A stretch of 64,000 nucleotides of DNA from the NCBI GenBank assembly GCA_023014335.1, contig JAECYW010000003.1, positions 4,092,001 to 4,156,000 of the forward strand. Direction: 5' to 3'. Below are positions 26,500 to 57,895 of this stretch, one piece after another. The position numbers were made by a program, and so were the translations under genes. This stretch comes from Galerina marginata (lineage: Eukaryota > Basidiomycota > Agaricomycetes > Agaricales > Galerinaceae). The notes under the pieces were generated by a model. That model saw nothing but the letters and a program-made list of their open reading frames with translations, had not been told where the DNA came from and searched no databases. The stretch's first letter is position 1. Every line of letters starts with the position of its first letter.

Positions 26500-28080
26500 A
26501 TGGACACAATCGATATCCCGTCTCAGGGACGAAAAACCGACAATGAGGGCGGCGACGCGGGTGGTTCTTCTGTATGCCCTATTAGTATTACGCATAACGA
26601 AGAGTCCTGCAAGCCATGGGACGCGGAGAGCGGTACTAGTGGAAGTGTGATACATCAATCGGCAAGTCCGCTTGTGTCTGTGTCTCAGATCCGCTCAATC
26701 CACATACAGGCCCAGATGTTCTCCGAGGCCAGTAACGTATCAATTCGGGACACAGAAATTAACAATGTCGGAGGCGACTTGACGATAAACAATTATATTG
26801 ATTTCTTCATCCTTCAGCCGCCAGGTACGACACTGACTATTTTTGCTTTCTCGGCACTAATTCTTCTTTATCGAAGGACCTTCACGCGTTTATTGTATGC
26901 CCTCATAAATCTTGAACATGGATGGTAGTTAACAATTCGTGATGAATGCGCCAAAGTTTCCTGGTCATTTGACCCAAATTATAATGACTGCGTTCAACCA
27001 GATGGCAGGTGGGCACAAACTTCCCTTCAGCTACCCATGTATGTCCCATAGCTAACTTGGAACAATATGAATCAACTTGGCGTGAATCCAGCCTTTTTTT
27101 GGTGAGCTAGTCGTCATTTGTCCCTCAATATGATCAGAATTATAATGTTCGCGTTCAGCCAGACGATTCGCTGGTAAAATCCGTAAAACCCTCCCATCAG
27201 CTACGCAATGCACGTCCTCATAGCTAACTTGGAACGATAGTCATCAATTTCGGACGAATGGGTAAGCTCGTCGACATTCAGTTACGCGATGTATGTCTTC
27301 GTAGCTAACTTGGAACGATAGCTATCATTTATGGATATATGCGACAAAGCATTTTCGGTGAGCTAGTCGGCATTTAAACCCAATCAAGATCACAATTATA
27401 ATGCCTACGTTCAGCAAGATATCGAGCCGGTACAAACCTCCCTTCAGCTTACCCTATCTATGTCACTTAGCTAACTTGGAACTAGGCACCAACTTGGGGT
27501 GAGAGCGCCAAACCGTCTTTGGTGAGCTAGTCGTCATTTAACCCTAAACATGATGACAATCATAATATCTACATCCAGCCAGACCCCGAGCCGGTACAAA
27601 CATCCCTTCAGATAAGCGATGTATAGCCTCATTTCTAACTTGAAACGATAGCGGTCAACTTGGGAACAATTCGCCAAGCCATTTTCAGTGAGCTGGTCAT
27701 GATTTACCGTTTAATCCCGGGCGTGATCTAACACGATGTCTACACAGGATCTAAAATCAAATATAGTAAGGACTGGTATCTCTAACTCAGTTCTAATTAC
27801 TGAGCACTCTTGGTGTATGGTAGTCTCATGCAGCCGAGAATGTTAAGAGTTTCCTATCCAGTCCCTTTTCGTTTGTGGTCAGTAGTGTTAGCAGAGTTTA
27901 TTTATTGCATATTTACGTTGAACAGCCACCAGTCAAGGAGAGGATCGCAGAAGACGCCCTCAAATACCCGCCTTTACCCTATGTTCCGGTCCTTCTGAGT
28001 AAAACCTCCCTGGTCATAAACGGAGTAATGACGATAGTGTGCGTACTATTCTCTAAATCTCCTGCCCTCATCATGTCCTA
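26500..28080 (+). CDS. Module-family protein, cassette 1 (unrecognised)
   Basis: The first exon starts at ATG 26500 (M-D-T-I-D-I-P-S-Q-G-R-K) and is hydrophilic. It reaches the family motif Q-M-F-S-E-A-S-N-V-S-I-R-D-T-E-I-N-N-V-G-G-D at about residues 71-92. After it comes a tandem array of short exon pairs (26935-27720). The last recognisable exon near 27930-28040 reads I-A-E-D-A-L-K-Y-P-P-L-P-Y-V-P-V-L-L-S-K and corresponds to the C-terminal segment of the cyclin and GATA fusions. The intermediate splice sites cannot all be fixed, and some array units look damaged, so the gene may be non-functional. Function unknown. It is a tandem paralogue of the cassette at 28866-30270. Confidence 0.5.
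26935..27725 (+). repeat. Tandem array of exon-pair units (about 165 bp each)
   Basis: Five units, one truncated. Conserved landmarks: AATTATAATG..TACGTTCAGCCAGA, GAGCCGGTACAAAC.TCCCTTCAG (ends at about 27030, 27200, 27281, 27447 and 27611), GCTAACTTGGAAC.ATAG, TCAACTTGG, and CCATTTTCGGTGAGCTAGTCGTCATTTAACCC. Spacing is about 165-170 bp except for the truncated 81-bp step. Each unit could encode a 57- to 69-nt exon (N-Y-N-V-Y-V-Q-P-D-P-E-P-V-Q-T-S-L-Q) and a 36-nt exon (S-T-W-E-Q-F-A-K-P-F-S). The cassette at 29.3 kb has a single unit. Confidence 0.75.
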
Positions 28081-28865
28081 GTTGGTTTAAGTCTCCTCTG
28101 TCTTTCCCCGATATGTGTTCCACTGTGACCCCCCGAGTATGATTTCTGGGAACATCCAGAGATTGCTTTAGGTAAGGATGAATTCAAACTTGTAAAGGAG
28201 TGTATCCGAAAGGCACTGAACCCTCCTCAGACGCGGAATTGTCAGGCTTAACCTCTCTGATTTTCCTCCAACGACAAAATCAATTAAAACCAAAACAACG
28301 CAAAAAATAGGGGGCAACCGAACAACGAAACACGGAGAATAACAAAAACAAAATAAACATCCACCAAAAACAGTACAAAATTAAAAATTCCGGAAGAAAA
28401 AAATAGGCGTGGGTCAGCTCAGACCCGGAAGGGTCAGGCTTAACTTTTCTAATTTACTCCATTGACGGTATCGAAAACAATACAAAAAAGGGGGGCGCTG
28501 CCCTCAAGCTCAGGACTTGTTGGACTACGAGCCCATTTGCGTACATACATTTCCACCTGCAGACCGGTAGCTTTTCCCATGAGGTTTTTGATGCACCCGG
28601 TACTAGCAACTCATTTAACTTCGGTCTATCGATGTTATCTTTTTAGAAGACTAAGTCTCTTGTAGACGTAGATATAAAATCATAACAATCGTAACCGAGA
28701 AAACCACGGAAAGGACAAAAGCAGAATGGCACTCGGTGTGGTGCTGGCATCTTCGCCGAGCTGACCGTAGATTAGATAAACTGGATCTTATCAGTGGCTG
28801 TGCAATGTGAGAAATCTGGTCGGTTTTGGGGTACCGGACAGTCGACTTTGGGGTGCTGTTCGTGA
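28081..28865. other. Intergenic between module cassettes
   Basis: A-rich 3' flank text (28270-28450, runs such as CAAAACAACGCAAAAAATAGGGGG) and then sequence resembling 30690-30790 (AGATAAACTGGATC..TCAGTGG). No gene seen. Confidence 0.4.
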
Positions 28866-30270
28866 CAAATACATGTAGACCTCTACATATATTTCTGTTG
28901 ACGCATTCATTTCATTTCGATTGCCTCAAGGCTGCATGCTGTGTCCAGATGACCGCTTGTCTGCATCGCCACTCTTGAAAGGGCCCCTCACTCTTCTCCC
29001 TCACTCTCCCACTTCGGAGCAGAATGTTGTCTTTAACATCTCTCCTGCCCGGGCCACCAAGTGGGCTCCGTCCTAAGACTCATATCCTACCATGCGCCAT
29101 CAGTCGTTACGATACACAAGCTCCACTGGCACGGAATGTCAGTAGTAAATTAGCCCTCCTAAGCTTATCCCCCAGATTAGCCTCTGAATACCACATCCAG
29201 GTCGAGATGTTCTCGTCGGCCCATGACGTATCAATACGAGACACAGAAATCAACAACGTTGGAGGTGATTTGACGATCAACCACAATTACAACGTCTTTT
29301 TTCACCCAGAGTTCGACTCGGAGCCGGTACAAATCTCCCTGCAGCTGCGCGGCGTATGTCTCATGGCTAACTCGGAACAATAGGTGTCAACTTGGGACCA
29401 ATTGGCCAAACCATTTTCAGTGAGTTAGCCCTTATTCAACACCAGGCGTGATCTAACACAATGTCTACCCAGAATCTAAAATCAAAGATAGTAAGGACTG
29501 GCATCTTTAACTCGGTTTATCACTGAGTATAATCTGTGTACGGTAGGCTCACGCTGCCGAGAATGTCAAGGGTTTCCTATCCTGTCCATTTTCGTTCTCG
29601 GTAAGTTGTGTTAGGCAAGTCTATTCATTACATATTAACATCAAATTTACACAAAATAGCCCGACATAAATCTGAATGTACGCTTATTCTCGCTCTAGAG
29701 GGCCATCGGTTTGCACTTACTTACATTGCACCACCAATCCAGGAGAAGATCGCAAACGACGCCCTCAAATATCCGCCTTTATTCAATGTTCCTGTACTTC
29801 TGAGTAAAACCTCCCTGTTCAAGGACGGAATCGTAAACCAGTTGTTGTGCGTGCTACCTTCTATATCTTCTCTTCCATGTCTTCATTGTGAAGTTTTGGC
29901 TTACATCTCGCCTGTTTTCCCTCTAGGTCAAGTGTTCGATACGCGTTCTTCTGCGACTAGGCAACTTCAATCTTGCCCGCATCTGGGCAGGATCTTGGAA
30001 GACTTACCTTGGACACACCGGGAAATTGGTTTAGGCGTGCACGGTTTCGAAATGGTGGCCTTTTGGACACGATACGAAACCGCGCTCTGCCTCAATGCAC
30101 ATTTGGTATAACTTCGCGGTTGATTGAGCTCGTGGCCCGAAAGAGTTAACTTCAACTCTGAGGGTCCGAGAGGGTGGTGCGTCACGCCACACCTGGGGGA
30201 CGTCGGGATCGGTATGGGCCGTTCTGGATGTTCCTCCTCCGTTGGTACCAATGAAAGTGGAAATATTACA
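28866..30270 (+). CDS. Module-family protein, cassette 2 (unrecognised)
   Basis: It begins with the shared leader (GTAGACCTCTACAT), then ATG 29024. The first exon contains V-E-M-F-S-S-A-H-D-V-S-I-R-D-T-E-I-N-N-V near residues 61-80, followed by T-I-N-H-N-Y-N-V-F-F and one exon-pair unit (E-P-V-Q-I-S-L-Q-L-R-G, then V-S-T-W-D-Q-L-A-K-P-F-S, both phase 0). Later exons are an 18-nt exon P-D-I-N-L-N near 29663 and E-K-I-A-N-D-A-L-K-Y-P-P-L-F-N-V-P-V-L-L near 29742. The distal part to about 30110 is unclear. Paralogue of cassette 1 and of the tails of the cyclin and RRM-GATA fusions. Function unknown; exon joins partly uncertain. Confidence 0.5.
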
Positions 30271-31048: not shown

Positions 31049-33380
31049 TTATCTGCCGGATGAGTCCATCCTTCCGAGGTACTCTGCAATTCTCTTCCTC
31101 GCGCGTGCTATTTCGATCGGGAAAGCAGCTGAAAACATCCCAAAGTTGCATCGTCGAGCCAAGGTAATTAGCCGTTCAGACCTTCCTGCTTTCCGGAGAA
31201 GCCTGTCCAGCAAATGCAGGCTATACACTACCAGGTCTTCAATTTTTTGATGCTTCAGGAAACTTGGGACCAAGTGATGTTGTATATAATGAAAAAATAT
31301 ATGGCACCATCCGCATGGCAAGCTTCAAGGTTTCTTTTGTCTTTAAAATGGTGTTTTAAAATCGTCGTGAATTCTTGGCTGTACCATTTTTGGCCCCTGG
31401 AAAGTTGATAGCGGCGAAGGTCAATGGAGGTCAATTGTTCGTCAAGTTGGAACAATTCGTTGCACATGGTGTACCAAATGTCCGGGTACGCGTAGCCTGT
31501 GTCGGTAAAGACTATGTATGAGACGGAAAGGAGGGCTATCAGTCGTTTATCTGAGTAGTAAGCTTTTAACTGGCCGGCGGCATGCTTGTCCATCGGTCGG
31601 GTATGGCGTAAGCAGAGCTCAATGGCATCTGAAAGTTGCTAATAGGAATAAAGAATTAGTTGGGTTAGCCAAATTAAAACCACGTATACGAACAGAACGT
31701 TTGATGGAATTCCAAAGGAGTTCTAGATTTGAGTACGCGGATTCGTACCCATCGGATTTGCGAAAACGAAAGACTCCAAAACTGTCAAGGTTTAGAATGT
31801 CTTGTCGTAGCTCTTCGCTTGGTGAAGCTCTATCAAGGTGGCGAGCGCAAACATATATGTCCCGATCCGATACAATATCTGAGAAACTTGTCAGACAATA
31901 AATCGAACATTGGTCCGATGACGCGGGATAGTGCGATGCACATCATGCACTTACTTGGGAAAAATTGAAACATCGCTCGTGCAAATTCAGCATGCCGGTT
32001 TGGCGGGTCGATGTACAATGACTTGGAGCGTGATTTGTCAAGAAAAAAGTCTTCGAGCGATGCGTGATGCAGGCGGAACTCGGAGCCACCCTGAAGGTCA
32101 ATGACTGCATGGAGGTCGCAGAAAGATGTGTTGATGTCTCCTGTGTGCAAGGAAAGCTTGTGCTCCATGTAGTTCACGCCAGGAACGAAATGATGATCTC
32201 TTGTGAGTAGATAAAAACTTAAAACCTTCAATACCAGCTCAATGTTCTGGACCCCGGCGAATACATGGTGGTAAAGTGCATCTAGGTCAGAGAATGGCAA
32301 ATCGTGATCTCCTACTGGGGGGCGTAGACCGAGAACCATTTCCAATCTATCAGCCGGTTTATGTCGAGTAGATCTCACGAACTTTGTAACGGTGGCTGCG
32401 TAAATGAATTGACCCGACGAATTGGTAACGAGTTTTTCCAGCGTTTGCTGACCAGGCCACCCTACCAGCTGCATTTTGAATGGATGGTTTTCTTTGATTT
32501 CGTTAAATTGACTTCGGAGGAAGAGCTCAATATCCGATGACGACTCGTATGTGTCGTCCAGGGGGAAGCGAGATGTCACTTCCGTCAAGTAGCCTGAGCC
32601 AAAAGAAAAGGTTATATCGTGCTCAGGACGACTAGTGATTAGGAAGATTAGCGGCAGGTGGTGGTCTTGCAGTGCTTTTGATATCGTGCGGATGATATCT
32701 ATTTGCCAATCGGGGTCAATGCATTCATCGAGCCCGTCGATGATAATGAGGCGCTTGGACCTGGGGTCCTCAAAATATCCAGACGTAATAAGTGAATCGA
32801 GTGGCTCAACGATGAGAGAGCGGATCTGCGCCATGAGGGACAGGGTGAATATGAGAGGCTCGGCGTCTATGGCTGCCACAATGCTTTCCCTAACTTTACG
32901 ACCAAGAGATCCTGCCTGATAGGCAATGGTGGCGATCAGTGACCGGGGATGATTTCGCGTCGAGTCGAACCTTGAAAAAAAATAACTGGCAAGTAAGATT
33001 TCCTCCTCGAACGCCCAGTCCGCAAGGGTCTGCGCAATAGCTGACTTCCCTGATCCTGCGGGTCCATGCAACCACTTAATGAGAGCACTTCTTGTCATCG
33101 GGTCGAGGCCGAGAATCCAATCCTTGAGTTTCTTTAGGATCGCAACCCTCGTGTTCGGAAAGCACTTGGGCGGGTCACGACGTTCCCCTGAGTTATGGAA
33201 CGCAGAAGGGGAGACTGCCTTCGTCAAAAGGTCAAGGCTCGCTATTGATTTCGATCAGCTAGAAAGTTCAGCAAGCAGCCCTTACTCGCCTTGACTGGGG
33301 TGGATCTGCCTGACATCATTAATCTGCGTAAAGGTCCCTCCAGTGACCAACAGATTATGGGACGACAACATTGGGTTCAT
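31049..33380 (-). pseudogene. NACHT-domain NLR protein with frameshift
   Basis: Start at ATG 33380, exon 33380-33286, intron 33285-33238, then a long exon. The N-terminus is M-L-S-S-H-N-L-L-V-T-G-G-T-F-T-Q-I-N-D-V, the short motif that heads many basidiomycete NLRs. The NACHT NTPase has Walker A G-P-A-G-S-G-K-S-A-I-A and Walker B L-I-I-I-D-G-L-D-E-C. A helical region follows to F-L-R-Y-C. At about 31865 the frame shifts: the expected continuation D-R-D-I-Y-V-C-A-R-H-L-D-R-A-S is one base out. After an intron the frame resumes (A-I-E-L-C-L-R-H-T-R-P) and ends with L-D-R-L-L-R-K-A-G-R-S-E-R-L, stop at 31049; a second frame break lies near 31300. No WD40, ankyrin or TPR repeats. As read, the protein would end after NACHT. 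NLRs of this kind are thought to act in non-self recognition and cell death. Confidence 0.75.
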
Positions 33381-34289: not shown

Positions 34290-34860
34290 TGACCATCAAC
34301 GAACACTCCCCCCCCTCTCCAAAGCAATACTATACAAATAAAAATACCATACCCCTCCGACGAGAGCACCATCACCTGCGGCATGCTGCCTGACAACGCG
34401 ACGAAGTCCCGGGAAGGCTCCCACATTTTGGTGAGGGTGTTGGGGAGGTACCCGCCCATGGAGTGGGTTAGGGTTTTGGATAGCTGCATGGATTTACGGC
34501 GGAGGCTTGAGCTGGATATGAAGATGAAGATGAAAGGGGATGAATTTGGATGTGGAAGGAGAGAAAGAGGATGACGCACGAGACACTGTTCACTTTCATC
34601 TTCTCGACGAACGCCTCGTACCCGCCCTCCGAGCCCTACGTCGTCCCATCCACCAATTCAGGCGGACTGCTCGCACCCGCACCCACACCATCCACACTAG
34701 AAATTGACGGCGTCCCAGCGCCCCGCTCCCGCTCCCCAGCTTGAAGATATGCACCGTATCATGCGCCGAGCTTACCGCCAACAGCGTGCCCACCAAATTA
34801 AAGTTCATCGAATAAATCTCTTCGGAGCTGATACAGCTTCCCCGCGCCGGGGACACATAC
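34290..34860 (-). pseudogene. ATG18 fragment 2
   Basis: A second, longer minus-strand copy of the distal ATG18 region. It runs from [26 protein letters not shown] near 34830-34740 through exon 6 text ([11 protein letters not shown]) to CGAACACTC near 34300. Upstream of the FRRG position the homology stops. Frames are broken. It lies in tandem with fragment 1. Confidence 0.7.
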
Positions 34861-35878: not shown

Positions 35879-37507
35879 ATGTCGACTACTCCCTGCCCAG
35901 GAGCCCCGAGACAACCTCCCGCCGGACTCTCAGTGAGTTCTGCACCTTGTTCGAACTTCTGGCTCGTATATAATCAGCTAATTTTACATCTCCCAAGGCC
36001 GCAGCACCCACTACTCCCGAAACGGATTCTTATCATGGACACGAACACACTGCGAGACTCGCCGCTCGCTTCATCACGCATCTATTCGCCTGCCCCGAGG
36101 AACCGCCCGCTTCGAGCCCGAGTCACTCTCAAGCCAAACTGCCATTCTTTATCGCGTATACTTTGTATCGCACAAAGTTGCACTCCGCCGTCACTTTTAC
36201 CGCCCTCCTTTTACTCCAACGACTTAAGGCGCGCTTCCCATCCGCGCGAGGATCGTCTGGGCACAGACTGTTCATCTCTGCCTTCATGATCGCGTCCAAA
36301 GTCGTGTGCGACGACACCTACTCCAACAAATCTTGGTGTATCGTCGCTCAAAACATGTTCAAGCTGCGAGAGATCAATCAAATGGAGCGAGAGATGTGCT
36401 CGTATCTCGACTGGGAGCTTTGGGTCGACGGCAGGAGCTTGTCTAACTTCGAAAAAGCTGTGACGAAAGACTTCGGAGAGGATAAGGACCGGTGGACATA
36501 TCCTACTTACCCTCCATCCTTCGTATCAAAACGAATGAATCTGGATGGCGAGAAAACCGCCAGGCAAGCCTCTCCTCATGAAGATGCAGACGGAGAGCTC
36601 GGATTTCCTTGGCGTGAAGAGTACTCCGATGTAGATTTAAAGGATCTTCTGCCCAGAAGCATGGATGTGAGTAAGCCTTCTGCTGACTCCAGATCATTGT
36701 CCTTTCTACAGACTAGGAACAAGCAGCCGCTGACCGTCCCGCACAGGTACGCATGTTCTCCAACGCTTGCAATGTTTCGATACGCGACACGGCGATCAAC
36801 AACGCTGGCGGTGATATAACGATACACCACCATCACCACACTCATTTCCACCGAGAGTCGCAGGTACTGTACATGTTTTTCAAGCCTCGTTTGTGGGCGT
36901 GTCTTCTTACAGGAGATTGCTTAGGGCGTTTCGGACCATCAATTCCAGTGGCGCAGTTTGCTTTCGGTGAGTAAACTCTTCTAGGCCCTTAAACGTCGCG
37001 ACAACGATCTGACTTCGCTCTTCTGTGATTAGAGCCCAGGATCTACCATGGTGAGTATAAAGACTTTTGACCTGGATTGTTAAATTCGAGCGTTCCCCTT
37101 AGTTTCACCTCGTTGCCGACACAATCAAGAAACTCCTCCCTCTTGGTTTTTCACAGTCGGTGAGTCTTATTGTCGATTTACATCTGTCTGAAGATGATAC
37201 TTATTTATCTGCCATATAGTCAGAAATAAACTTAAGCGTACGGCCATGCCTTCTCGATAATATAGGTATCAACAACTTACTGGCCCGCTTACAGGAAACA
37301 GCTGCTGAAGACGTTTTCAAATACCCTCGTCTGCAGGGCGTGAGGGTCGTTGAGAGCAAAACGACGATGTGCTTGCCAGGATCCATAATCCAGAAGCCAT
37401 ATATGGTATTCACGCTCTGTTCTCCAATCTCCTCTTTCTTATTTCTGTCGCTTTTTCGTTTGTAGGTCGAGCATCCGGTATTCCTTCTACTGATTGGAAG
37501 AATATAG
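35879..37507 (+). CDS. Pcl-type cyclin fused to the repeated module
   Basis: Nine exons: 35879-35932, 35998-36666, 36747-36863, 36949-36966, 37033-37050, 37103-37159, 37220-37237, 37295-37405 and 37466-37507. Every join is in phase, giving about 367 residues. Residues 30-165 are a cyclin box of the Pho80/Pcl kind (A-R-L-A-A-R-F-I-T-H-L-F, H-R-L-F-I-S-A-F-M-I-A-S-K, D-D-T-Y-S-N-K-S-W, R-E-I-N-Q-M-E-R-E-M-C-S-Y-L-D-W). Such cyclins activate Pho85-like kinases. An acidic linker follows (E-L-G-F-P-W-R-E-E-Y-S-D-V-D), then the module from residue 242: [18 protein letters not shown], a His-rich run, and D-V-F-K-Y-P-R-L-Q-G-V-R-V-V-E-S-K. The module is foreign to known cyclins. The last splice choice is the weakest. 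Confidence 0.75.
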
Positions 37508-38543
37508 GGCCTCGAAAAGTACATGGATCAGCACCTCACCGGCAGGATTATGGCAACGGACACCCTCGGTTAGATGACCTTGATATGAACCCGGAATGAA
37601 ATGGCTTTCACCCGGACACGGCTAATTGAACCAGAAATCACCAAGAAAAAAACGGCTGGACCTCGAAAATTTGAAAGCACCAAAAACTATGCGACGAAAG
37701 ATAAACGGCAGGGCCTGAAAACATTCGAAAAGCATCCAAAACAAGACAACCAGAATAGGCCGGGCCTCAAACATTTGAAAAGCATCCTATAAAAGACAAC
37801 AAAGGATACCGAAAAACAAAAAAGGCGAGAAAAACGATCAAACTAAAAACTAAACAAACAAGAGGATATTCTGCCGTCGTTTGAAATGTCGTCATTCAAT
37901 TCCGAGGTCTTCATCGTGGTCTCATTTTCTCTCCCCCTCTCATCTTCACCTCTTCGCTTTTGTACCGCACATATACCCTCGCTCAACAGTCTTTATCTCT
38001 AACTCGCATCTGTATCATTGTTTCATCCCCGCATTTCATTGCTTAGTGTACTTCTAGTGTTAGACAGCTACAGTCAATTTCATACTTAATCTCAGTCTCA
38101 TTTATCCACTGAATATATATATTTGTATATTTCTCTTCGCGATTGGACAAGGTGGGCAATGATAATGCCTCAGGCTGGGGTTTGTAATGCAGAGACGGAT
38201 CGAAGATATCCATCAGTGGCTGTGCCGTCCGAATATAGACGATTGCGGTTAGGTTGACCAATCAATGAACTTGCCTTAGCCTTCGACGCGACAGCGAACG
38301 ATCTGCTCGACGCGACTTCCAGCTAGCCCACGACTGCCCAGGGTAGGTCAACGGAAGGGACCTATCTAAGGCTTACCTGAACACAGCCAAATTCCAATAA
38401 TTTTGAGCGCTCCGAGTCGAGTATGCATAGCCTTCCCTGTCATTGTCAACGTTTAAATCTCAGTGGCTGTTCGAAGAGCGGCTTGACGATTTCCCGTTCT
38501 TCTCCAGTCTGCGGCTTTTCGTCCTTTCCCATTCCACGAGACA
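37508..38543. repeat. Shared 3' flank and promoter stretch
   Basis: Text such as GAAATGGCTTTCACCCGGACACGG, AAAAAACGGCTGGACCTCGAAAATTTGAAAGCA and TCATTCAATTCCGAGGTCTTCATC recurs inverted at 55950-56290, and again at about 51900-52370. It has no gene, and leads into the RRM-GATA-module start at 38544. Confidence 0.6.
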
Positions 38544-41349: not shown

Positions 41350-41652
41350 AGGAGAATAGGATCTCGAAGCGCATCGACCAGCGTCTATCAGGCAGGATTA
41401 CGGCAGGGAACCCCGCGATTGGATGTATTGCGGTTCTCTGCGACACTTTGAAAGCACAATTGGCTGACTATCTCGGATGCAGCATATATGGAAAGGAAAA
41501 TCCACAAAATAGGCGGGGAAATGAATCGGAAAGCGGACCTCAGATTATAAAAATAGAAAAAATAGGAAAACACGGTAACTGAAGCAAAAAAAGTAGGGCA
41601 AAATTGAGTTTATATGTGGTTTTAAATCTTCTAATAAGCGCTCTCTTCAAAT
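41350..41652. other. Edge of inverted repeat and 3' flank
   Basis: The first 60 bases continue the arm; the rest shows only weak similarity to the shared flank (AGGAAAATCCACAAAATAGGCGGGG). No gene seen. Confidence 0.4.
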
Positions 41653-45339: not shown

Positions 45340-45596
45340 CTATATGTTGTTCCAGGTTACGGACTTATGTGGGTGGATTCGGCCAGGCAGGCAAATGATT
45401 CAAAACAGACTAATGTGCTCAAAGTCAGTGATGGGAGGATGCACGGCACAGTTAAAGAAAGAAAGACCTCTGGCAGTGAGCCTGGGTAGAAATAAGAATT
45501 GTAGTTGTTAATTATTGTTATATTTCCCCCCGCATTGGTGATGCTTGTCTCGCGCAAGGATACATGATGGGCATTGGAGAACATTTCCATCTGCAC
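45340..45596 (-). pseudogene. Isolated copy of the module motif
   Basis: The minus strand reads M-E-M-F-S-N-A-H-H-V-S-L-R-E-T-S-I-T-N-A, then G-G-N-I-T-I-I-N-N-Y-N-S-Y-F-Y, which is the motif exon of the module family. A plausible acceptor precedes it, as in the fusions (GTGACTAG). No F-K-Y-P-P-L segment was found downstream, so this appears to be a fragment or a diverged short gene. Confidence 0.5.
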
Positions 45597-45599: not shown

Positions 45600-47578
45600 T
45601 CACACCGGAGGCATTTCCCAGGGCATGTAGACTGTACGTGCCTTGCGTTCACCTGTTCCGTACGTTCCACGTACGCTTCCTGACCTACAATAAATGCAGC
45701 GAACCTGCCTCGAGGCGCTTTCAAGCGTGCCCAACCTATTTTCGTGTGACTTGTTGATCATGTTCGGAAGATAAGATAAGATCTCGCAATCAATTATTAG
45801 GTGCCGGTTAGGTACCTTGCATCCGTTTACCTGCAATGTAAGAGACTGGCAGTCAAAGGCTGGTCCACCGATACAGCCAACCTGGCAGAACCAGTTGTTG
45901 TTTGTCGCCTCTTTTTATGTCAGTGAACTTTCACGTTGGTAGTAAACGTGACTTGAATTTAACAGCGGGATTTTACAACCAGCCGAAGTCCTCACTTTGA
46001 TTTAATTGCCTAGTGGACAATACCCATTACTAATTAGATTACGGGCATTTAATAAGCAGATTTTTAAGAGAGCTTGGCGCTAATATACAACCCAAGGGGT
46101 AGGGAAGAAAAAAATCGCGGATATCATGTTATTTTTTGCGTTTAAGGATTCTCGGACCCTCCCCCCCTCCCCCCATTTCCTAATTAGGACATGTTCCTGA
46201 TGACAAATTTATATTAGTCATGTTAAATTGTCAACTTCTTGCGTCGCTCTCTATTTTCTCCGGTCTGTGCAAGGTCTGCGTTTGTCCTGCATTCATTCCC
46301 GCAAGACCACTCTTGTTCATTTTCAGTTGTGTCTGTCATTGGCACATAGGATCTTCTTTTTGTCGTCGACTTTGACCATGTAGTGGCTTAATGTCACACT
46401 AAATTGCAGTCCGGGGCCGCAAAATTGGTAAAATGCCATTTTTTTTCTGGGCAACCCATATCTTGTACAAAAAAAGTCAATGGATGCCGTGTTTATAGGT
46501 CTGGACCATCCATTTGCGTACTTTGAGGGTTGAATTTAACCAAAATGTGCTGTATATATGCGTTTCCACCGGAATTATTGCCATTTATGTGATATTATGT
46601 CATCCAAATAAAATACGTTTAAGGTCTCGCTGGGACCCCCCCCCTCCCGGGATGATGTGCCGGCATTTGCCGATCCCTACCCCTTGATACAACCTGTAAA
46701 TGTGGAAGTCCAAGGAAAAATGCAGATGATTTCTTGGAGCCAAATTCAGTCAATTCGCTGTCTACTTGAACCATACAAATACAGGAATAGGAGATTGGTG
46801 ATATTTATCATATCTAAAACCTATTCTTTGTGCGTTATTGACCTTTGTTCAGTGCAGCAGCACAAACCCCTTTTCAGTCATTTTTAAGAGATTAAATTAT
46901 TCAAAAAACGGGAACTGGTGGTGCTTAAATACATACTATAGGTTTGAGCTAGCCAGTCGACTTACGAGAGTGAGAGCCTGAACTTGGAAGGTACAATTGA
47001 GGCCAAAGAATTCAATTGCGATGATAAAAAGCCAAATTGTGCGCATATAGCCTACTGGTACCTCTTCTCCCGTTTCACCGGCCTTTGTCAGTCATTTGGC
47101 CACTTAAATCTGCTTATAATTTTGGCTTATCTCACAAGATTTCAAGAACAAAATTACATCTGACTTTGAGAAGGGCAAAACTGACCGCACAATTTCAAAC
47201 TTCTTAATAATTGTGATCTGAACATTTTTTGAAGATTAAAAGAAATATACAAGATCTAGAGAAAATGGTGATTAAAATGTCCCTTGCCTGGTTCCGGTGC
47301 TTAGATAAAAAAATTATCAAACGGCAAGGAAATTTAAGCGCGAACACTATTGCTCTGCATTTTTTGAAGTTTCTAATTCGACAGAAGGTAAAAGCGGATG
47401 AATTCACTTATCTTATCTTATCAAGAAGAGATGCCCCTGGGAGTTCGAATGCGTGGTCATGCCTCACGGTTGCCTCGAGGCAAAAGTTAGAGTACAGTGA
47501 GCGTCTGTGGAGTGTACAGGAGACATGAACTCAAGGCACGAGGAATTTACATGCCTTGGAAAATGCCTCCGGTGTCAT
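45600..47578. other. AT-rich intergenic region with a degenerate inverted repeat
   Basis: The outer parts 45600-45800 and 47420-47578 are related in opposite orientation (GCCTCGAGGCA, GGCACG...TACATGCC.TGG.AAATGCCTCCGGTGT). Between them lie homopolymer-rich text (46150-46175 and 46630-46650 C runs) and no supported gene. A possible shorter inverted pair (AATAAGCAGATTT near 46055, AAATCTGCTTATAA near 47106) could mark an old element but is weak. Confidence 0.4.
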
Positions 47579-50500
47579 TCAAGGATGGCTCCGAGCATAA
47601 AGGCCAGCAGGGGTGCTTACCGTTGGATAATTGTTGGGAGGTGAATATTCTGTCGAGTCAGCACCAACGTTGTCATCTTCGCCACAGGACGGATCCATAA
47701 AGCTTTCTTCATTTGCTGTCCACAGGGTCGCATTGTCAGTGTCAGTATCTTCGGACGACGGGTCTTCCTCATTGAAGATAGGTGAATCAGTGGTTTCTTC
47801 CATAGCGCCTTGGCTGACATGCCCTACGAATGGTTTTGCCACTGTGTCCCAAATTCTAATTGTCTTGTCGCCTGAGCCAGAGACAACGCGTGTGCCGTCA
47901 GGCGAAAATGCAACCGACCTCACCCACCCCGTATGACTTCTGAACGGCGCTCTAGTTGGCTTCCCCGTTTCTACATCCCAGATTCGGACTGTGTTGTCGC
48001 TTGAGCCTGAGACTATGCGCCTGCCATCAGGCGAGAATGCAACAGCCAAAACCAGGTCTGTATGACCGAAAAATGGTTCTCCAACTTGCTTTCTTGTCTC
48101 CAAACCCCAGAGCCGAATTGTCTTGTCACTCGAACCCGAGACAATACGCTTGCCGTCAGGCGAAAAAGTGACAGACCGTATCCAACCTGTATGCCCAAGA
48201 AGCGTCTCGCCCACTGGCTGCCCCGACTCTGCATCCCATATCCGAATGGTGTGGTCACCAGAACCCGAGACAACGCGCTTGCCATCAGGCGAAAAGGCGA
48301 CTGATAAAATCAGGCCCGTGTGGCCTCGAAGTGGCTCTGTCATCGGCCTTCCTGTTTCTATGTTCCATACGCGGACTGTGCGATTCCGCGAGCCAGAGAC
48401 TACGTGCTTTCCCTCGGGTGTGAACGCTGTTGCAGTGAAATTACCTGTGTATCCTTGAGATGGATTACCCGCTTCCCGTGCCTTCTGCGTATCCCAGGTC
48501 CGAATTGACTCGTCATCCGAGCTGGAGACTCGCCCCCTCCCGGCCGAGAATCCAACCGACATGACCGAACCTACATGCCCGACGAATGGTTTTGCCACTG
48601 GCCTCCCCGTCTCCGTATCCCAAATTCGAACAGTACGGTCACCAGAACCCGAGACCACCTGTCCGCCGTCAGGCGAAAATGCTACTGATGTGACGAGGTC
48701 CGTATGTCCGTCCAAAACAAGCATGCAGTCTGAAATAAGTGGGTTAGTAGCTAAGAGACGACTGATAAATTTTCACTTACGATCTGTGAACTGCTCAACA
48801 AACTTTACCGCGATTTCCCTGTAGTCGTCTCTATCACTTTTCAAAAGGTCTTGCACTGACGCTTGAATGTCGGTTGAAGGGCTTAGTTTCACGGACGAGT
48901 GGCCCATACCGTTCTCCAAGATGTCCACGATGTTGGCTATAAGCTGATATTTGATCTCAGTCTCAGCCTTGGAACTGTTCAGCGCCTTGATCACTCCTTC
49001 GTCGACGGCTTGGCGTCCATCCCCTAAAGCAGCCATGTGTAAATGATGAAAAATTATTGAGAGATCGAGGAAGCTTGCATGATGTCGCAGTTTGACGCAA
49101 GGTCTGCCAGACAGTAGTATCGTTTGCTCGGCGAATCTCTTCACGAGAGTTTCTGTGTAAATGTACCAGTCGACGGCCTGCCACTCGCTAAGCCCCTCCT
49201 CTGGGCTCTCTTCCAAAACGCAGGGTCATCGTCCAAAGTCGAGCTTTCGGAGTGTACTGCTTTCCTAATTTACCGCTCAATATAAGAGATCCGTGAATCT
49301 TCTGACCGGCGTGGATTTTACGGCCTGACCCAAGATGTGGCCTAGTGAGCAGGTTAGTCGAGGGGAATTACTCAAAAATTGGGTGGATTTACTTGTGCGT
49401 TGGCTTCTTCCCATATTCCCGCCGCGTATGCGTCAACCTCTTGAAGAAAAAGAGCTCGAGCGGCCACCATCCCGGCGTCAACGATTCGATAATTCGATTT
49501 GCTCATTAGGATTGAACACACATTCGAATCGCGCCGTGCGAAGCCCCAGTGCCCCAGCTTCAAAGACCATCCACCTCAGAGGAGGTCGACTACGATCCAT
49601 CGCTGCATTTTCGGCATTTCCTCCTCCACTTAATTCCAGAGATCAACTACGGTGCTTCTCAGGATGATAAAATGATTAGACTCACATATCCACGTGGGTT
49701 CCTGCGAACCAGGCTTCCAATGTTTGTGGGGGTGCTCCCGTCGACCCATCCTCGATCTGCGAACCGCCGACGGCATCAATATCTCTGGCAGGGGTCGCCG
49801 TTCCAGTGGCAGTATCTTCGGAAGACGGGCCTCCCTCATTGAAGGCGGGTGAATGATTGGTTTCTCCCATAGCCCCATGGTTCATAGGTGAAGATCCCAT
49901 TTCTTCAGATTTGGCGGGCGGCGGTCCTGACCCTCCATTGGCGTATGCGGGCAAGAACTTCACTCGTCGCTCGTCAAGTGCCAGCGCATGGCGAAAGTAG
50001 CAAACGTGTTTCATCCCGTCAGTCGTCCGGGGGAACACGTGGCTTCCGCGTGCTATTCCAATGGACGAAACGGTATCCCTAGGAGTCTTGATTTAGCTAT
50101 TTAAAAGTCTAAAACAGACGACACGTACCAGGCTCCAACAAAGTGCACTTTCACATCCTTGTACGAAAATGTCTGCTTGAAACGGTCAGCATTTGACAGT
50201 CTTTCCTGCGTGTCAGTGGACCCAACCCGACTTGCGGTAAGGTAATCGCTTTTTGGGTCAGCATATAGCTGGAAGGCACTGGAGTGGTTATTAGCTTCCA
50301 GGAAATGCAATATCAAGTCCGGGCGCACACTGGGATTTGCATTTTGTTTCCCTTAAGGATAAGGCCGACCTGTAAAATTAAAAGATATTATATAGGCGCT
50401 AGAGGACGCAGGATGTATCTTACTTTGTCGATCATCGCAGAGAGCACTCGGACCTGAAATGCCCCACGAGGAAAAACCTGCATATCCTTCAGTATTGACC

Positions 50501-51116
50501 TACGATAGAGAGCATATTGGTTCAAACTCACCGAACAGAAATATACAATCACCAGGCTCATAATTGTCCGAAAGCCAGCGATATGCAGCCAAAACAGTTT
50601 GTTCAAAATTCCTGAATAAAGGCGATATGGAGGAAAGAAAGAAACACTAAAACGTGCTTCAACGCACCATGCGATTGCCAACTCGATTTTTGTGATAAAC
50701 GACTTGTTTATAGAATGAAAGTGACTTCCAAGAGGGTCGAGCATACGTCCCGTTGCCACTGTTGTACAGGTTCGATGGTTGTCGCCGACCTCCTTCAAGA
50801 TGAGATTATACAATTCGATAACATTTGTATTCTTTTCAAGGGCGTCAGCAGGTCGACAGGCTGAAAGTCTTGTAAACGCATACCTTTTCTCCGAACTGAT
50901 TTGCAATACCGTCTATGCAAACGATCAGGTTTCTACCGCTTGCCTTATGACAGCATTTGCTACGTCGTGCTTCGGAAGGAAGTAAGCAGCGTCAGTGACC
51001 GCCAACCTTTGTCGCTGATTGCAATAACGTTATTCATTATTTATCCATTGGTTGTGCAGAAGATACGTACAACTCTGGTCTTTGATAAGGAGTTCAGGAT
51101 GCTCTGGATCCGCCAT
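47579..51116 (-). pseudogene. DUF2235-WD40 protein, frameshifted
   Basis: Start at ATG 51116 (M-A-D-P-E-H-P-E-L-L-I-K-D-Q-S). The DUF2235 (alpha/beta hydrolase-like) core is recognisable: N-L-I-V-C-I-D-G-I-A-N-Q-F, N-T-N-V-I-E-L-Y-N-L-I, the nucleophile-region motif F-P-R-G-A-F-Q-V-R, H-F-V-G-A-W and F-R-H-A-L-A-L-D-E-R-R-V-K-F. The C-terminus (47579-48724) is an intact run of seven WD40 repeats of about 43 residues with G-H-T-x-x-V-x-S-V-A-F-S-P-D-G units, close to each other as in HET-E-like proteins. The frame is broken near 50770 and restored near 50685, broken again by an apparent 8-bp insertion near 49490, and again near 49215. An acidic segment (P-S-S-E-D-T) occurs twice, near 49840 and 47745. 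Confidence 0.7.
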
Positions 51117-52389
51117 TGAGAAAAGAGTACGATGGATGTCGTATAAAGAAAGGAGTGGTCACTGAATGTCGTTCGTGATTATAAAGAGGCCTGGAGCCTT
51201 ACTCGAGGCAGTTTGCACAGTAGCCGCATGTTGCTAAATGCTGGTGAAGGTGATGACAGACGGACATGCCTTCTATCGGGGCTGCCTTTGTCTTTGGGAC
51301 GAGTCGAGTGCAAGTCCAAGCCGCCCCCCTTCAAGAGCGTCCATTTCAAGTCCTATTTATCAGGACAGCCAAATTTTAGCGTTCTTTATCCGGCAATGCC
51401 CGGAGCCTATTTGGGTCTATGATGCTGTGCCATGCAAGTGCTATCCACGCGTCATGCCTAACTTTAATGCACGTCCGCGTTCGCGCCCTCCACCGTCTCA
51501 AACGACATTGATGCAGATGACACGCCCCCGCTTGTTCCAGACTGCACGTCATTGTTCCCCCACCCAAATATAAAGATCGCAGCGATCTTCCTCAGGTTCA
51601 GGTCATTGTCTTTGTGGTAGTTCGAGGTGAAAAACTTCAGAATGCGTGCAATTCATCAGATTGACAGACGTTTGTAGGTCAGCCTAACGCCACAAAATTG
51701 TACTGACCCAAACAGCTGTTTCTCGCATCCTCATGTTATACATACGGCACATCTAGGGTTCCTACCACGGCCCATGTCGTCGGCAGGTCAACTTCAAGTT
51801 TCTTAAGCTTATCGTGCAGATTGTGAGATATAATTTCCTTGTTAGGCTGGATAGTCTAAGTAGGAATAATGTACAAATAATAGCGCGTACAAGGGAAGAT
51901 TAAGCCAGTATGAAAATGACGAGGGTGACCAAAGGGTGAGGAGATGATACAAAGCAATTTAGTAAGAGCCGCAGGGAAGACTGTTGAGTACAGGGTATAC
52001 GTCCAACAAAGGAAAACAGCTAAGGCTGAGAGATGAGGAGAAGAAACAGGCAAAGACAGTGACAGAGACCTCCGAATTGAACTACCACATACGAACCTCG
52101 GACCTAATTCAGACGACGGAAAAACATCCCATATTTTTCGATTTTTTGGCCACAGGCGGTGGTTATCCTTTTCCCTTTTTTTTTGGTTTGGCTTTCTTTT
52201 ATCGTTTTTTATTTTGGACGTTTTCTGAAATTTCTCGGTCCAGCCCTCTTGGATTTGTTTTTGGTTGTCCGTTCTGAATATTTTCGAATTTCAAAGGTCC
52301 AGCTCCATGCTTTTTTTTTTTTGATCTTTATGTTCAATTTAAGCCGTGTCCGAGTGAAAGCCGATATTCATATAAGGATCATCCAATCG
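51117..52389. other. Intergenic, upstream of DUF2235 gene
   Basis: From 51120 to 51850 no gene is seen. 51900-52370 resembles, inverted, the 37560-38030 stretch downstream of the cyclin fusion (GTGTCCGAGTGAAAGCC, GGTCCAGC.CC.T, ATTTTTTGG..TTTT). Confidence 0.45.
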
Positions 52390-52456
52390 CGGGGTTCCCC
52401 TGCCATAATCCTGCCTGATAGACGCTTGTCGGTGCGTTTCGAGATCCAGTTTTCCT

Positions 52457-55287
52457 TCAATAGAAGGAATACCGGATGCTCGACCTACAGAATCAGACTG
52501 GGTCACCGATGAGTCAATAGAACAGAGAGGCAAAGCACATACAGTGTTTGCATTATGAATCCTGGCAGGCACATGGTCGTTTTGCTCTCGATGACCTTTA
52601 CGCCATGCAAGGGCGGGTACTTGAAGACGTCATCAGCTGCTGTCTTCTGGAAATCGGAATCATGTCATTTATATGATAGGGCAATTGAGAGAAAATGAAC
52701 GTACATTCAAGTTGATTTCTGACTATATCGTAGGCATAAATAATTAGCGTCTGGCGATTGTAATCCATAGATGACGCTTACCGATGGCGATAAACCAAGG
52801 GGTAAGAGCTTCTTAATTGTTTCAGCGGCGAAGTGGAACTACAAGGAAGACTTAAGCACAATGACCGAAGCAATTTGTCACCATACTCACCATGCTGGAT
52901 CCAGGGCTTGACCACTGCTCGCGACCGAGTTATATCAGAACGTTTAAAGCGGGATAATAGATGGTAAGTAATAATCACCGAAAGCAAACTGGACCACTGG
53001 GGTAAATAATCGCGGAAGCCCTGATAGTCCAAGCCAATGGTTAGTCGCGCAGTTCATTTGCAACGTGACGAAAGCACACTATACCTGTGGTTCTTGGTAA
53101 AAATGATTGTGGTGTATGGTCATATCACCTCCGACATTGTTGATCGCAGTGTCGCGTATCGAAACATTGCGAGCATTAGAGAACATTCGGACCTGTATTT
53201 GACGTTCAGTGATTGCATTTTACGGGCATAAAGAAAGATCCATGGTCTAGATTGTACGACTTACATCCATATTTTTGGTCGGAAACGGGTCGCCTGGATC
53301 CTCATCGAACTCCGAGTCGTCCCAGGCGTCGTTCTCACTACTCTCCAAACTTGCATCTGAATCTTCCTCCCAAGGAAATTCGGACGGCTCTTCATCAGCA
53401 TGTTCATTGTCGGAGAATTGATAATAAGGGTTGTCTAGAATCATGGAAGACATGACATTGCGCCAAAGCCGGATGAGCACTTAAAACGAGAGAGTTAGGT
53501 AAATACAACTCCCTTTTCTAGGAAGCTAGAGGGTGTCTTGGTTGCCGAATCTGGAGCGAGACTGGTGGAAGCAAGATGGCTAGGGATGCGCATCTCACGT
53601 CTAGAACTGGCTGACGTCGTGTCCTCTTGGCCAGCGCCAGCAAGACAAGAGCCTTCTCTGGTGCTTGAATGACTACGACTCCGAATAAGACTTGGTTTTA
53701 GCGCAGTCCCAGTGGAACGAGCCGAGCCTGGGCCACGGAGTTTCTCGTATATACCACAGCTACAATAGGATAAGCAAAAAAAGCGTCAATGGTGAGTCAA
53801 AGGGTGACATACGCATTGCAAACTCTTTCGCCTTCGTGATCTTTCCTCCACAGCGGCGTGGACGTTGTATGGCAAATCGTGCACTGAATGGGCGAGCCAA
53901 TAAGAGTGAGGCTGTACTCTTTCGTAACAAAGGCAAAAAGGGAAACCGACCTCAGGTTTCGGGCTTTCGTCGGGAGACAGTTGCAGCGGCACAATCCTCT
54001 GGGGAGGTCGTGGTCGAGGTCGTTTGTGCTGTTCCGGTTTGTAAAGTAAATAACAACGAGATGATAAAGAATTCCAGAGAATCAAGCTTCATCCGTGTAG
54101 AGTGAAAATATAGATACGCACCAGTTTGCAGTACAGCCCGCAGGCGTTGCATGTCAGCTCGTCGTTCAAGCCCCGCCTCCAGAGCGGGGTGCTAGTGACT
54201 CCGCAATTTGTGCATTTTTTAACACTCCCGGACTCGGAGCCTGTAGCAGTACCACGGTCAGTGAGGCGTTGCTAACCGATTCGGGAGTTTTGCGGGCAAT
54301 GCTGTGAGATAGTGAAAGTGGCTGAATGTCGCCATCGCCAGCACAACTTTCAAGGGGCTCAAGTGATGGCCGTCTGCTCTGTGTAAATAATGCGACTGAC
54401 AAGTTAGGGGAGAAGAAAGGAAGAACGAACGACTAAGATACCAACAGATGCGGGAAAAACAGGCCAGAGTTGTTGGGACTCGATTCTGATCAAGCCCTGC
54501 TTCAAATGCGGAGTCCGGGGCGATAGCTGTGGGTGAAATGCGCCACTATTTCAAAAAAAAAAGGGGTGATTACTTGCGCATTTATAATAACAACCGGTAA
54601 CCTTACTGGGCTGCGCGAGAGGCAATAGACGCCATTCATTTCCACCATTGCCCGCTGTTGGTCCGCTTCATCGGTGAAACTAACGAGAAAGTTTGTAACA
54701 GAGCCGATGTACGAGACAAGCTTACTATTGACTTAACCGGACGAACCCATAGCCTCGAGAAGAAATGCCTGTCGCGGGATCTAGCAACGATCTTTGCGCT
54801 TTTGCAGCTTAGGAACGGCGGATAACCTTGGGGTATTGGGGGCTCCGGAGTCCGAGCAGTGGATTACGGAAGACAGCGAACAGGTCTGAATTGGAAGTTT
54901 CAGGTGCTAAATCCTGACGAGTATACTGTATTCCTTGGGGGCATTGGAAATGGTCGTGCCCCCGTCTCCGCCAAAAGTCTTGCTATGCAAAAAAGGAGGT
55001 GATACCGATGTGGGATCGGCGCAGTCTGAGTCTCCGTGAAAGCGAGGGCTTGCTGGATGCGCCTCTGCATCTTCTGCGCATTTCCTGGCCCAGTGTTCAC
55101 GCTCAATGAGCAGGAGCTCAGTATCGCGACAGGCCTCAGCAGGGCTGACCTGGCGAAGTTCGCAGTAGAATGCTGATCAGAGCTAGCACCGGCAGGTGAG
55201 TTTGTGGGTGGAGAGGGAAAAGGGTAGGCCAGTTAGAAGTGGTCCGTTGTGGTCACTGTCTGCTGTTTAGGAGGAGAGGACCTCCAT
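52457..55287 (-). pseudogene. RRM-GATA-module gene, arm B copy, broken
   Basis: Aligned to 38544-41349, it has an extra C right after the start (codon 3 region, near 55279), further indels in the RRM, and a one-base loss near 54265 that puts the first GATA finger ([14 protein letters not shown], itself well conserved with C-N-A-C) out of frame with the upstream exon. The second finger [14 protein letters not shown], the acidic segment, the motif exon near 53190 and the tail exons are still recognisable. As read, no full-length fusion could be made; a truncated product from an internal start is possible. Confidence 0.75.
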
Positions 55288-56370
55288 TGTCTCGTGGAAT
55301 GGGAGAAGAAAAGAGGAAGAGTTGCAGACTGAGTACTGAGGAGGAACGGGAAATCGCCAAGCCGCTCTTCGAACAGCCACTAAGATTTAAACGGTGACAA
55401 TGTCAGGTAATGGCTATGCAGGTCCCATTCGAGCCCTCAAAGTTATTGGAATTTGGCTGTGTCCAGGTAAGCCTTAGATATCTAGATAGCTTAGATAGCT
55501 GCCTTCCGTTTGGACGGGGAAATTAGACCTACCCTGGACAGTCGTGGGCTAGCTGGAAGTCGCGTCGAGCAGATCGTTCGCTGTCGCGTCGAAGGCTAAA
55601 GCAAGATTGATTGGTCAATGTTCCCGCAATCGTCTACACTCGGACGGCACAGCCACTGATGGATATCTTCGATCCGTCCTGCCGCCTGTGGACTCCTGCC
55701 TGAGGCATGATCATTGCCCACCTTGTCCAATTGCTAAGAGAAATATACAAATATATATATTTGGGAGATAAATGCGACTGAGATTATGTACGAAATCGAC
55801 TGCAGCGTCTAACACTAGAAGTACACTAAGCAATGAAATGCGGGGATGAAACAATGATACAGATGAGAGTTGGAGATAAAGGCTGTTGAGCGAGGGTATA
55901 TGTGGCGATACAAAGCGAAGAGGGAAGATGAGAAGGAAAGACCATGATGAAGACCTCGGAATTGAATGATGACTCATTTCAGACGACGGCAGAATATCCC
56001 CTTTGTTTGTTTAGTTTTTATTTTCCCGCCTTTTTGTTTTTTGGTATCCTTTGTTGTTTTTTTTGGATGCTTTTCGAATGTTTGAGGTCCGGCCTATTTT
56101 GGTTGTCTTGTTTTGAATGCTTTTCGAATGTTTCGGCCCTGCCGTTTATCTTTCGTCGCGTAGTTTTTGGTGCTTCTCGACTTTTCGAGGTCCAGCCGTT
56201 TTTTTTGGTGATTTTTGGGTTCAATTAAGTCGTGGGCGGATGAAAGCCATTTCGTTCCGGGTCCATATCAAGGTCATGTAATCGCGGGTGTCCGTTGCCA
56301 CAATCCTGCCGGTGAGGTGCTGATCCGTGTACTTTTCGAGATCCTATTTCCTTCCAATCAGTAGAAAGGA
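55288..56370. repeat. Shared flank between the two arm B pseudogenes
   Basis: Inverted equivalent of 37508-38543, with TATATATATTTGGGAG and GACTGAGATTATGTACGAAAT-like text. No gene seen. Confidence 0.55.
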
Positions 56371-57895
56371 CTACCGGATGCTCGACCTACCAAGAAAAAA
56401 GTTACAGGAATGAGAAAGAGGAGATCGGCGAACAGAGCGTGAATACACGTACAGCTTCTGGAATATGGATCCTGGCAAGCACATCGTCGTTTTGCCTCAA
56501 CGACCATCACGCCGTGCAGACGAGGGTATTTGAAAACGTCTTCAAGCAGCTGTTTCCTGTAATCAGGCCAGTAAGGTTGTTGATAATCTACTTTATTGAG
56601 AAGGCATGACCGTACGCTTAAGTTTATTTCTGACTATATGGCAGATAAATAAGTATCATCTTCAGACAGATGTAAATCGTCAACGAGACTCACCGACTGT
56701 GAAAACCAAGAGGTAGGAGTTTCTTGATTGTGTCGGCAACGAGGTGGAACTAAGTGGGGCCGCTCAAATTCTACAATCCAGGTAAAGAGTCTTCGTACTC
56801 ACCACGGTAGATCCTGGGCCTCTAATCAGAGAAGAGCAAAGTCAGATCGTTGCCGCGACGTTTCAGGGACTAGAAGCGTTTACTCACCGAAAGCAAACGG
56901 CGCCACTGGAATTGACGGTCCGAAACGCCCTAAGCGATCTCCAGTAAGAAACAGGCACAAACGCGGCTTGAAAAACGGTATACAGTACCTGCGGCTCTTG
57001 GTGGAAATGAGTGTGGTGATGGTGGTGTATCGTTATATCACCGCCAGCGTTGTTGATCGCCGTGTCGCGTATCGAGAAGTTGCGAGCGTTGGAGAACATA
57101 CTCACATCCATGCTTGCGGGCAGAATATCCTCTGAATCTACATCGGAGTATTCTTCAAGCCAAGGAAATCCGAGCTCTCCGTCTGCATCATCATGAGGAG
57201 AGGCTTGCCTGGCGTTTTTCCTCGCCATCCAGATTCATTCGCTTCGATACGAAGGACGGAGGGTAAGTAGGATATGTCCACCGGTCCTTATCCTCTCCGA
57301 AGTCTTTCGTCACAGCTTTTTCGAAGTTAGACAAGCTCCTGCCGTCAACCCAAAGCTCCCAGTCGAGATACGAGCACATCTCTCGCTCCATTTGGTTGAT
57401 CTCTCGAAGCTTGAACATATTTTGAGCGACGATACACCAGGATTTGTTGGAGTAGGTGTCGTCGCACATAACCTTGACGCAATCATGAAGGCAGAGATGA
57501 ACAGTCTGTGCCCAGACGATCCTCGCGCGGATGGGAAGCGCGTCTTAAGTCGTTGGAAGTAAAAGGAGGGCGGTAAAAGTCACGGCGGAGTGCAACTTTG
57601 TGCGATACAGAGCGTACGCGATAAAGAACGGTAGCTTGGCTTGAGAGTGACTCGGGGTCGAAGCGGGTGGTTCATCGGGGCAGGGCGAATAGATGCGTGA
57701 TGAAGCGAGCGGCGAGTTTAGCAGAGTGTTCGTGACCATAATACGAATCCTTTTCGGGAGTAGTGGGTGCTGCGGTCTTGGGAGATGTAAATTAGCTGAT
57801 GATGCACGAGCCAGAAGTTCGAACAACATGCAGAACTCACTGAGAGTCCGGCGGGAGGTTGTCTCTCGGGGCTCCTGGCAGGGAGTAGTCGACAT
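56371..57895 (-). pseudogene. Cyclin-module gene, arm B copy, broken
   Basis: Aligned to 35879-37507. Exon 1 has one base lost and two gained, which shifts the phase into exon 2. An extra T in the cyclin box near 57550 gives L-L-L-L-P-T-T then stop. An extra base near 57225 breaks the linker. The segments D-D-T-Y-S-N-K-S-W, R-E-I-N-Q-M-E-R-E-M-C-S-Y-L-D-W, the motif exon [16 protein letters not shown] near 57100, and the tail exons remain clear. Non-functional as read. Confidence 0.75.

Follow-up and report, generated by a model that had tools for sequence, protein, structure and literature searches.

We analysed a stretch of 64,000 nucleotides from Galerina marginata (hereafter the window; C23:4092001–4156000 of an assembly of 69.3 Mb), in which a module of about 125 residues, encoded by seven small exons, sits at the C-terminal end of several unrelated proteins. 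The best-supported steps in its history are the repeated capture of front ends from other genes and their fusion to this conserved module. Agaricomycete NOD-like receptors (NLRs) have an amyloid-like motif at their N-termini to which the motif that opens the module may be distantly related, for which the comparisons give modest support; we tentatively propose, with a probability of roughly 0.3, that the captured regulators carry an NLR-linked amyloid-type tag and serve as baits or effectors. Splicing of the fusions was modelled from the DNA.

Direct reading of the window sequence revealed the motif MFSNAxNVSIRDTxINNxGGD at the start of the module, with methionine as its first residue in all nine aligned copies. 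The motif exon of 36–42 residues is followed by exons of 12–14, 6–8, 18–19, 6, and about 35 residues and by a short final exon ending in SSIRYSFY or similar, with the exceptions of a fifth exon of 8 residues in the copy on contig C2 and a sixth exon of 37 residues in the cyclin fusion cyc1; the closing part of the module contains a segment DVFKYPPL...ESKT. An earlier note on this DNA had described the motif, the tiny exons, and this final segment, and all three were found again at the same positions. In six loci, namely the two GATA fusions (GATA1 and GATA2), the cyclin fusions cyc1 and cyc3, the gene at 29.2 kb, and the C2 copy, all introns modelled within the module start with GT and end with AG, and the exon order is common, apart from one exon that is absent from the C2 copy. 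The module introns are in phase 0 save the last, which falls in phase 2 in all of the six models but that of cyc1, where it is modelled in phase 0. The following features of the window belong to the fusions:

26500–26824, forward: short unknown N-terminus starting at ATG 26500 and running in frame into a module motif exon (from 26710) of ambiguous donor phase
29201–29960, forward: module of the 29.2-kb gene, exon model with GT-AG ends (exons 29201–29326, 29384–29419, 29473–29490, 29547–29600, 29660–29677, 29743–29846, 29927–29960)
35879–36666, forward: Pcl-like cyclin part of cyc1 with Cyclin_N (exons 35879–35932 and 35998–36666)
36747–37507, forward: module of cyc1, exon model with uncertain frame of the last exon (exons 36747–36863, 36925–36966, 37033–37050, 37103–37159, 37220–37237, 37295–37405, 37466–37507)
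38544–40543, forward: NAM8-like RRM, double GATA finger, and acidic linker of GATA1, in several exons
40617–41349, forward: module of GATA1, exon model (exons 40617–40724, 40789–40830, 40895–40918, 40971–41027, 41087–41104, 41163–41266, 41322–41349)
45474–45590, reverse: motif exon of the WD40 fusion, with no recognisable exon 6 downstream
45603–47574, reverse: transposon-like element of about 1.97 kb within the WD40-module junction intron, ends read by eye
47621–49225, reverse: frames of a WD40-repeat gene, with a linker and a GTAAGC donor at their end
52457–53192, reverse: module of GATA2, exon model, its linker ending at 53265 (exons 53085–53192, 52979–53020, 52891–52914, 52782–52838, 52705–52722, 52543–52646, 52457–52484)
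56983–57114, reverse: junction and motif exon of the cyclin fusion cyc2, with the junction intron deleted in frame (..SMDVSMFSNA..)
36000–41425 and about 52380–57790: arms of an inverted segmental duplication carrying cyclin plus module and GATA plus module, seen as inverted repeat pairs

The motif was searched genome-wide twice, in one run with a cut-off of E 10, and both runs returned the identical 18 matches. As eight matches on contig C25 repeat loci of C23, the ends of the two contigs overlapping in inverted orientation at 99.67% identity, these reduce to ten distinct places, seven inside the window (26.7, 29.2, 36.75, 40.6, 45.6, 53.1, and 57.1 kb) and three beyond it (C23:4158905, C25:488612, and C2:1972929). 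Nine of them form one cluster of about 44 kb, and the remaining one lies on C2. A query with the long sixth exon against the whole genome matched eight of the ten places and nowhere else. Genome searches used single-sequence queries and only the best candidates were scored, so that distant copies could be missed. The partners at the ten places comprise three Pcl-like cyclins, two RRM-double-GATA proteins, a WD40 protein, a zinc-ribbon-like protein, a protein with a possibly membrane-bound relative, and a pair of short unknown N-termini, the last being those at 26.7 and 29.2 kb to which the earlier note had already assigned the module.

Comparison of cyc1 with Pfam resulted in matches to Cyclin_N (PF00134, E 9.5e-12) and PF08613 (E 1.7e-6), so that the Cyclin_N box of a Pcl-type cyclin is present; this part closes in an acidic linker ..FPWREEYSD..SMD. 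In GATA1, matches to RRM_1 (E 2e-8) and, in two stretches, to GATA (E 1.8e-21) were obtained, and NAM8 was the best PDB match of its RRM (E 6.4e-13). The junction intron between linker and module measures 55–80 nucleotides in six loci, with donor and acceptor in phase 0, and the module is predicted to be spliced onto the cyclin and GATA exons. Both fusions occur twice in the window because of the one inverted duplication. The tails reported earlier behind cyclins (36.7 and 57.1 kb) and RRM-GATA proteins (40.6 and 53.2 kb) are thus present, but they are two fusions duplicated together and not four separate events. A third module-bearing cyclin copy is found on C25, in sequence to which C23 does not extend. 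Between the window and C25, 14 substitutions and 133 gap columns were counted across 43.8 kb, and 121 of the 147 differing columns fall at 50–60 kb; this crowding at 50000–60000 suggests indel errors near the C23 end, so that the broken frame of cyc2 at 57 kb in the window is probably an assembly error. In the C25 copy, cyc2 is a single open frame of 386 residues with its cyclin frame intact.

The motif at 45.6 kb had been taken to stand alone; it is in fact where the WD40 gene of 47.6–49.2 kb has its 3' end, an insertion lying in the junction intron. Once the element is left out, the sequence can be aligned by eye to C23:4158905. The linker and donor of the WD40 gene resemble those of the zinc-ribbon fusion at C23:4158905. 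The inserted element has terminal inverted repeats that are 75% alike over the 60 nucleotides compared and a TGA target duplication, and it is probably non-autonomous, as its longest stop-free frame has 104 residues. The front of C23:4158905 reads as zinc-ribbon-like and gave no Pfam match. No Pfam match was obtained for the front of the C2 copy either; by our own reading, hydrophobic stretches come after its relative on C39, and this relative may be membrane-bound. In the 26.7-kb copy, an exon-6-like segment lies at 27938–28030. Tandem units at 26950–27720 in the same gene look, to our reading, like the last part of a motif exon with an intron and a piece similar to exon 2, as if this part were undergoing amplification.

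Pairwise ratios of nonsynonymous to synonymous substitution rates (dN/dS) of the module lay between 0.11 and 0.25 in six of nine pairs: GATA1/GATA2 0.106, GATA1/cyc3 0.127, GATA1/cyc1 0.173, GATA1/29.2-kb gene 0.181 (at a saturated dS of 2.4), cyc2/cyc3 0.203, and cyc1/cyc3 0.246. The others were GATA1/C2 with 0.299 (dS 1.9), cyc1/cyc2 with 0.405, a value that includes the last exon, whose frame in the cyclins is uncertain, and 29.2-kb gene/C2, which was not computable. Identity in exons and introns of the module was 95.5% and 88.4% for GATA1/GATA2, 84.3% and 75.1% for cyc1/cyc3, and 80.3% and 49.5% for GATA1/cyc3. Judged from these values, the module is under purifying selection, and the common exon plan together with the 80% versus 50% identity of GATA1/cyc3 excludes chance as the source of its recurrence. 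Some decay is possible, as the 26.7-kb copy looks partly degenerate and those at 45.6 kb and C23:4158905 have no recognisable exon 6. A wholly pseudogenic cluster was also considered and judged unlikely on the dN/dS values.

Four of the partners have a relative elsewhere in the genome that lacks the module. For the cyclin, this is a gene on C9 (78% identity over 160 residues) with a different C-terminus of its own; for the RRM, a gene on C1 (73% over query residues 14–86) with no GATA match nearby; for the C2 partner, a gene on C39 (72% over 97 residues); and for the zinc ribbon, a gene on C20 (76% over 54 residues). None of these four places gave a motif or exon-6 match in the genome-wide searches. 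On C39, three relatives of the C2 partner lie within about 20 kb (C39:2134960–2155470) as a local cluster of that gene family. Since four partners have a module-less relative at 72–78% protein identity, it is probable that front ends were duplicated and that one tail was added to all of them. Similarity at the nucleotide level to the C1, C39, and C20 relatives extends over 399, 1008, and 535 nucleotides (72–74%) and thus runs longer than single exons, so that the source of the copies was probably DNA and not a processed transcript. These relatives and the purifying selection bear out the portability of the C-terminal module proposed in the earlier note. Its suggestion of exon shuffling is right in part, but the cyclin and GATA fusions share short weak matches (E 1e-4 to 0.6) that reach beyond the upstream side of the junction intron, within the acidic linker, which fits ectopic recombination at the DNA level better than a clean exchange from intron to intron.

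The window also carries an NLR gene about 3.4 kb from the nearest module copies (29.2 and 36.7 kb), with the following parts:

31833–33254, reverse: NACHT/NPHP3_N open frame of the NLR (PF24883, E 1.8e-21; PF05729, E 2.9e-9)
33312–33371, reverse: MLSSHNLLVTGGTFTQINDV, the amyloid-like motif of the NLR N-terminus, about 60 nucleotides upstream of the NACHT frame and in a different frame

An intron presumably joins this motif to the NACHT frame. Genome-wide, at least 150 NPHP3_N matches were found (150 scored of 321 candidates). The pattern [VI]xGG[TNAMSD]F, which was written after the rows had been seen, occurs upstream of the NACHT domain in 14 of 18 NLRs picked regardless of motif, and across the six frames of the window (127,996 residues) it matches only once, in the window NLR itself (33312–33371). 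At the sequence level, the N-terminal amyloid-like motif of this genome's NLRs is clear. PMC9815663 describes an Agaricomycete group of such motifs (NLR05/08/22/29/44, HRAM-like), which have three hydrophobic residues, end in G[DN], and mostly stand at the terminus of the NLR; a table there lists neighbouring and effector-side hits as nil for this group.

The first 22 or so residues of the module align, with modest support, with the NLR N-terminal motif. A profile of 19 NLR rows, made up of the 14 pattern NLRs, the window NLR, and four places found by similarity (three without a check for a following NACHT domain), matched the module profile in register over 22 columns with a probability of 50% and E 1.6e-4, and none of 200 column shuffles was as good. 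Compared with the published group (PMC9815663), the module motif is alike in its 20–25 residues, spaced hydrophobics, and G[DN] ending, and the NLR N-termini of the same genome align with it in register, with modest support. It differs in lying inside non-NLR proteins, between a partner domain and about 90 further conserved residues, and in having RDTA in place of GGTF. As the GGTF core is replaced, the module and NLR motifs are related at best and not matched pairs. All module copies stand C-terminal to a partner or a short unknown front, and the fusion frames examined revealed no NACHT or nucleotide-binding domain, so that they are not integrated decoys of the kind found within NLRs.

Several comparisons characterised the remainder of the module. 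Three spliced modules gave nothing in Pfam at E<=10 except one match (E 0.033) below the family cut-off, the tail had no relative in PDB (best E 0.72), and comparison of the tail with the NLR stretch between motif and NACHT domain brought out no relation, as 38 of 100 column shuffles did equally well. Calling the module unrecognised, as the earlier note did, is right for the tail, though the opening motif may have distant kin in the NLRs.

Known systems offer partial parallels to these fusions. Effectors paired with an NLR, among them the MLKL-like C-termini that PMC9815663 reports for two Agaricomycete species, are non-NLR proteins with an amyloid motif towards the C-terminus. The motif of the module is placed similarly, and an NLR bearing a motif of the group lies about 3.4 kb from its nearest copies; the partners of the module, by contrast, are regulators and not HeLo, MLKL-like, or PNP_UDP domains, its motif is not at the extreme C-terminus, and the two sides are not near-identical in sequence. 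In the major integration clade of plant NLRs, copies of unrelated host genes are likewise repeatedly fused at a single site beside a short conserved motif, and DNA transposition or ectopic recombination has been proposed for this integration (PMC5819176). What stays constant in the present fusions is a small module that lacks a nucleotide-binding domain, and a bait would therefore be a separate protein. The CHK-2-derived kinase domains of fungal NLRs in Sordariales, as presented in PMC12258605, are a further case of a host regulator domain that was copied and kept, with the difference that those domains lie within the NLR proteins.

Taken together, we place the NLR-coupled reading first, because it names a directly testable mechanism and explains the motif. 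According to it, front-end DNA of a cyclin, a NAM8-like RRM-GATA protein, a zinc-ribbon protein, a possible membrane protein, and a WD40 protein would have been joined to one C-terminal module, and the captured domain would act as a bait or an output domain, a role suggested by analogy with plant integrated domains and fungal CHK-2-type decoys. Through the motif, the captured domain would enter a templated (prion-like) assembly and so be coupled to those NLRs whose N-terminal motif is compatible; we infer this pairing from the modest sequence similarity and the NLR next door. Interference with the bait could then be relayed to the NLR, or an activated NLR could draw the regulator into assemblies. 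A bolder and rather doubtful version is a decoy array outside the receptor, in which the tagged front ends of the fungus's own regulators would let compatible NLRs guard many baits at once.

Several results weigh against this reading. With only the 15 rows that were not chosen by similarity, the profile match covers 16 columns and falls to a probability of 28% (E 6.1e-4), a result that 1 of 200 shuffles equalled; the reversed module profile follows closely behind, with 14.9 against 16.6 for 15 rows and 15.3 against 18.6 for 19 rows. In a test of eight copies with a position-specific scoring matrix, the real score was equalled by between 29 and 341 of 5000 shuffles, depending on the copy, and another register was favoured by three of the eight module motifs. 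The core residues differ (GGTF in NLRs, RDTA in the module), 4 of the 18 examined NLRs do not have the pattern, and an AlphaFold prediction of the motif exon alone was uninformative (predicted local distance difference test, 59). Known effector-side amyloid motifs sit at the very C-terminus, and in the module about 90 further conserved residues stand after the motif. The partners include no known cell-death domain, and the text of PMC9815663 mentions a few MLKL-like C-termini in two species, and not regulators, as sharing patterns with NLR N-termini. As to capture itself, the search for a parent of the GATA fingers yielded only distant relatives (31–54% identity).

Much of this also speaks for an alternative that we consider no less plausible, namely that the module serves in regulation or oligomerisation as ordinary domains do and plays no part in amyloid formation, that the truncated-regulator fusions act in a dominant-negative or redirected manner, and that the likeness of the motifs is a convergence of short N/G-rich strands. 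The deviating core, the modest support for the NLR link, and the additional conserved residues all fit such a domain, and the GATA cysteines and the RNP1 of the RRM look intact in the translations by our own reading, so that target binding is possible. It is the in-register match of the 19-row profile, unequalled by shuffling, and the presence of a motif-bearing NLR in the same window that convergence accounts for less well.

The cluster might also be a recombination hot spot that donates 3' exons, with front ends being swapped, selection acting mainly for a stable C-terminus, and no immune role. Though the inverted duplication, the inserted element, the tandem units at 27 kb, and the short linker matches common to cyclin and GATA fusions are what such a hot spot would produce, we hold this account to be unlikely: the module is under purifying selection across different partners, the dispersed C2 copy retains the exon plan but for one exon, and the cyclin domain is constrained too, with dN/dS of 0.099 and 0.112 against its C9 relative. 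Less probable still is a selfish or incompatibility cluster, in which regulators with aggregating tails would poison cells lacking a matching partner, in the manner of a spore killer or of heterokaryon incompatibility. Fungal amyloid motifs do act in incompatibility, and this cluster of paralogs adjoins an NLR, but no toxin-type domain was found. Finally, a reading in which the module forms a gene of its own downstream, beginning with MFSNA and unspliced to the partners, is very improbable in spite of the invariant methionine, given the phase-0 gap of just 55–80 nucleotides in six loci and the uninterrupted C25 frame of cyc2.

The NLR motif and the decoy idea are already known; the arrangement with a shared tail on regulators is not, and the open-licence literature searched yielded no account of fusions like these. 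If the decoy array were true, it would provide the basidiomycete NLR motif group with partners of regulator type rather than MLKL-like ones. N-terminal amyloid-like motifs are numerous in basidiomycete NLRs, yet the published survey (PMC9815663) gives the main motif group few partners. The ten module places, for which the module-less relatives serve as natural controls, make the question of the NLR link testable. Even without this link, the fusions represent a route of gene building, by which one conserved tail was joined to many host front ends, with an outcome resembling the integrated domains of plant NLRs.

Apart from that, several NLR matches on contigs C17 and C27 are paired with identical scores, and the assembly may contain overlapping or uncollapsed stretches. 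Within the window, 34402–34818 and 43604–44023 are inverted copies of one stretch, 91–92% alike, with similar sequence again past the window end; they resemble a fragment of an Atg18/PROPPIN-type WD40 gene.

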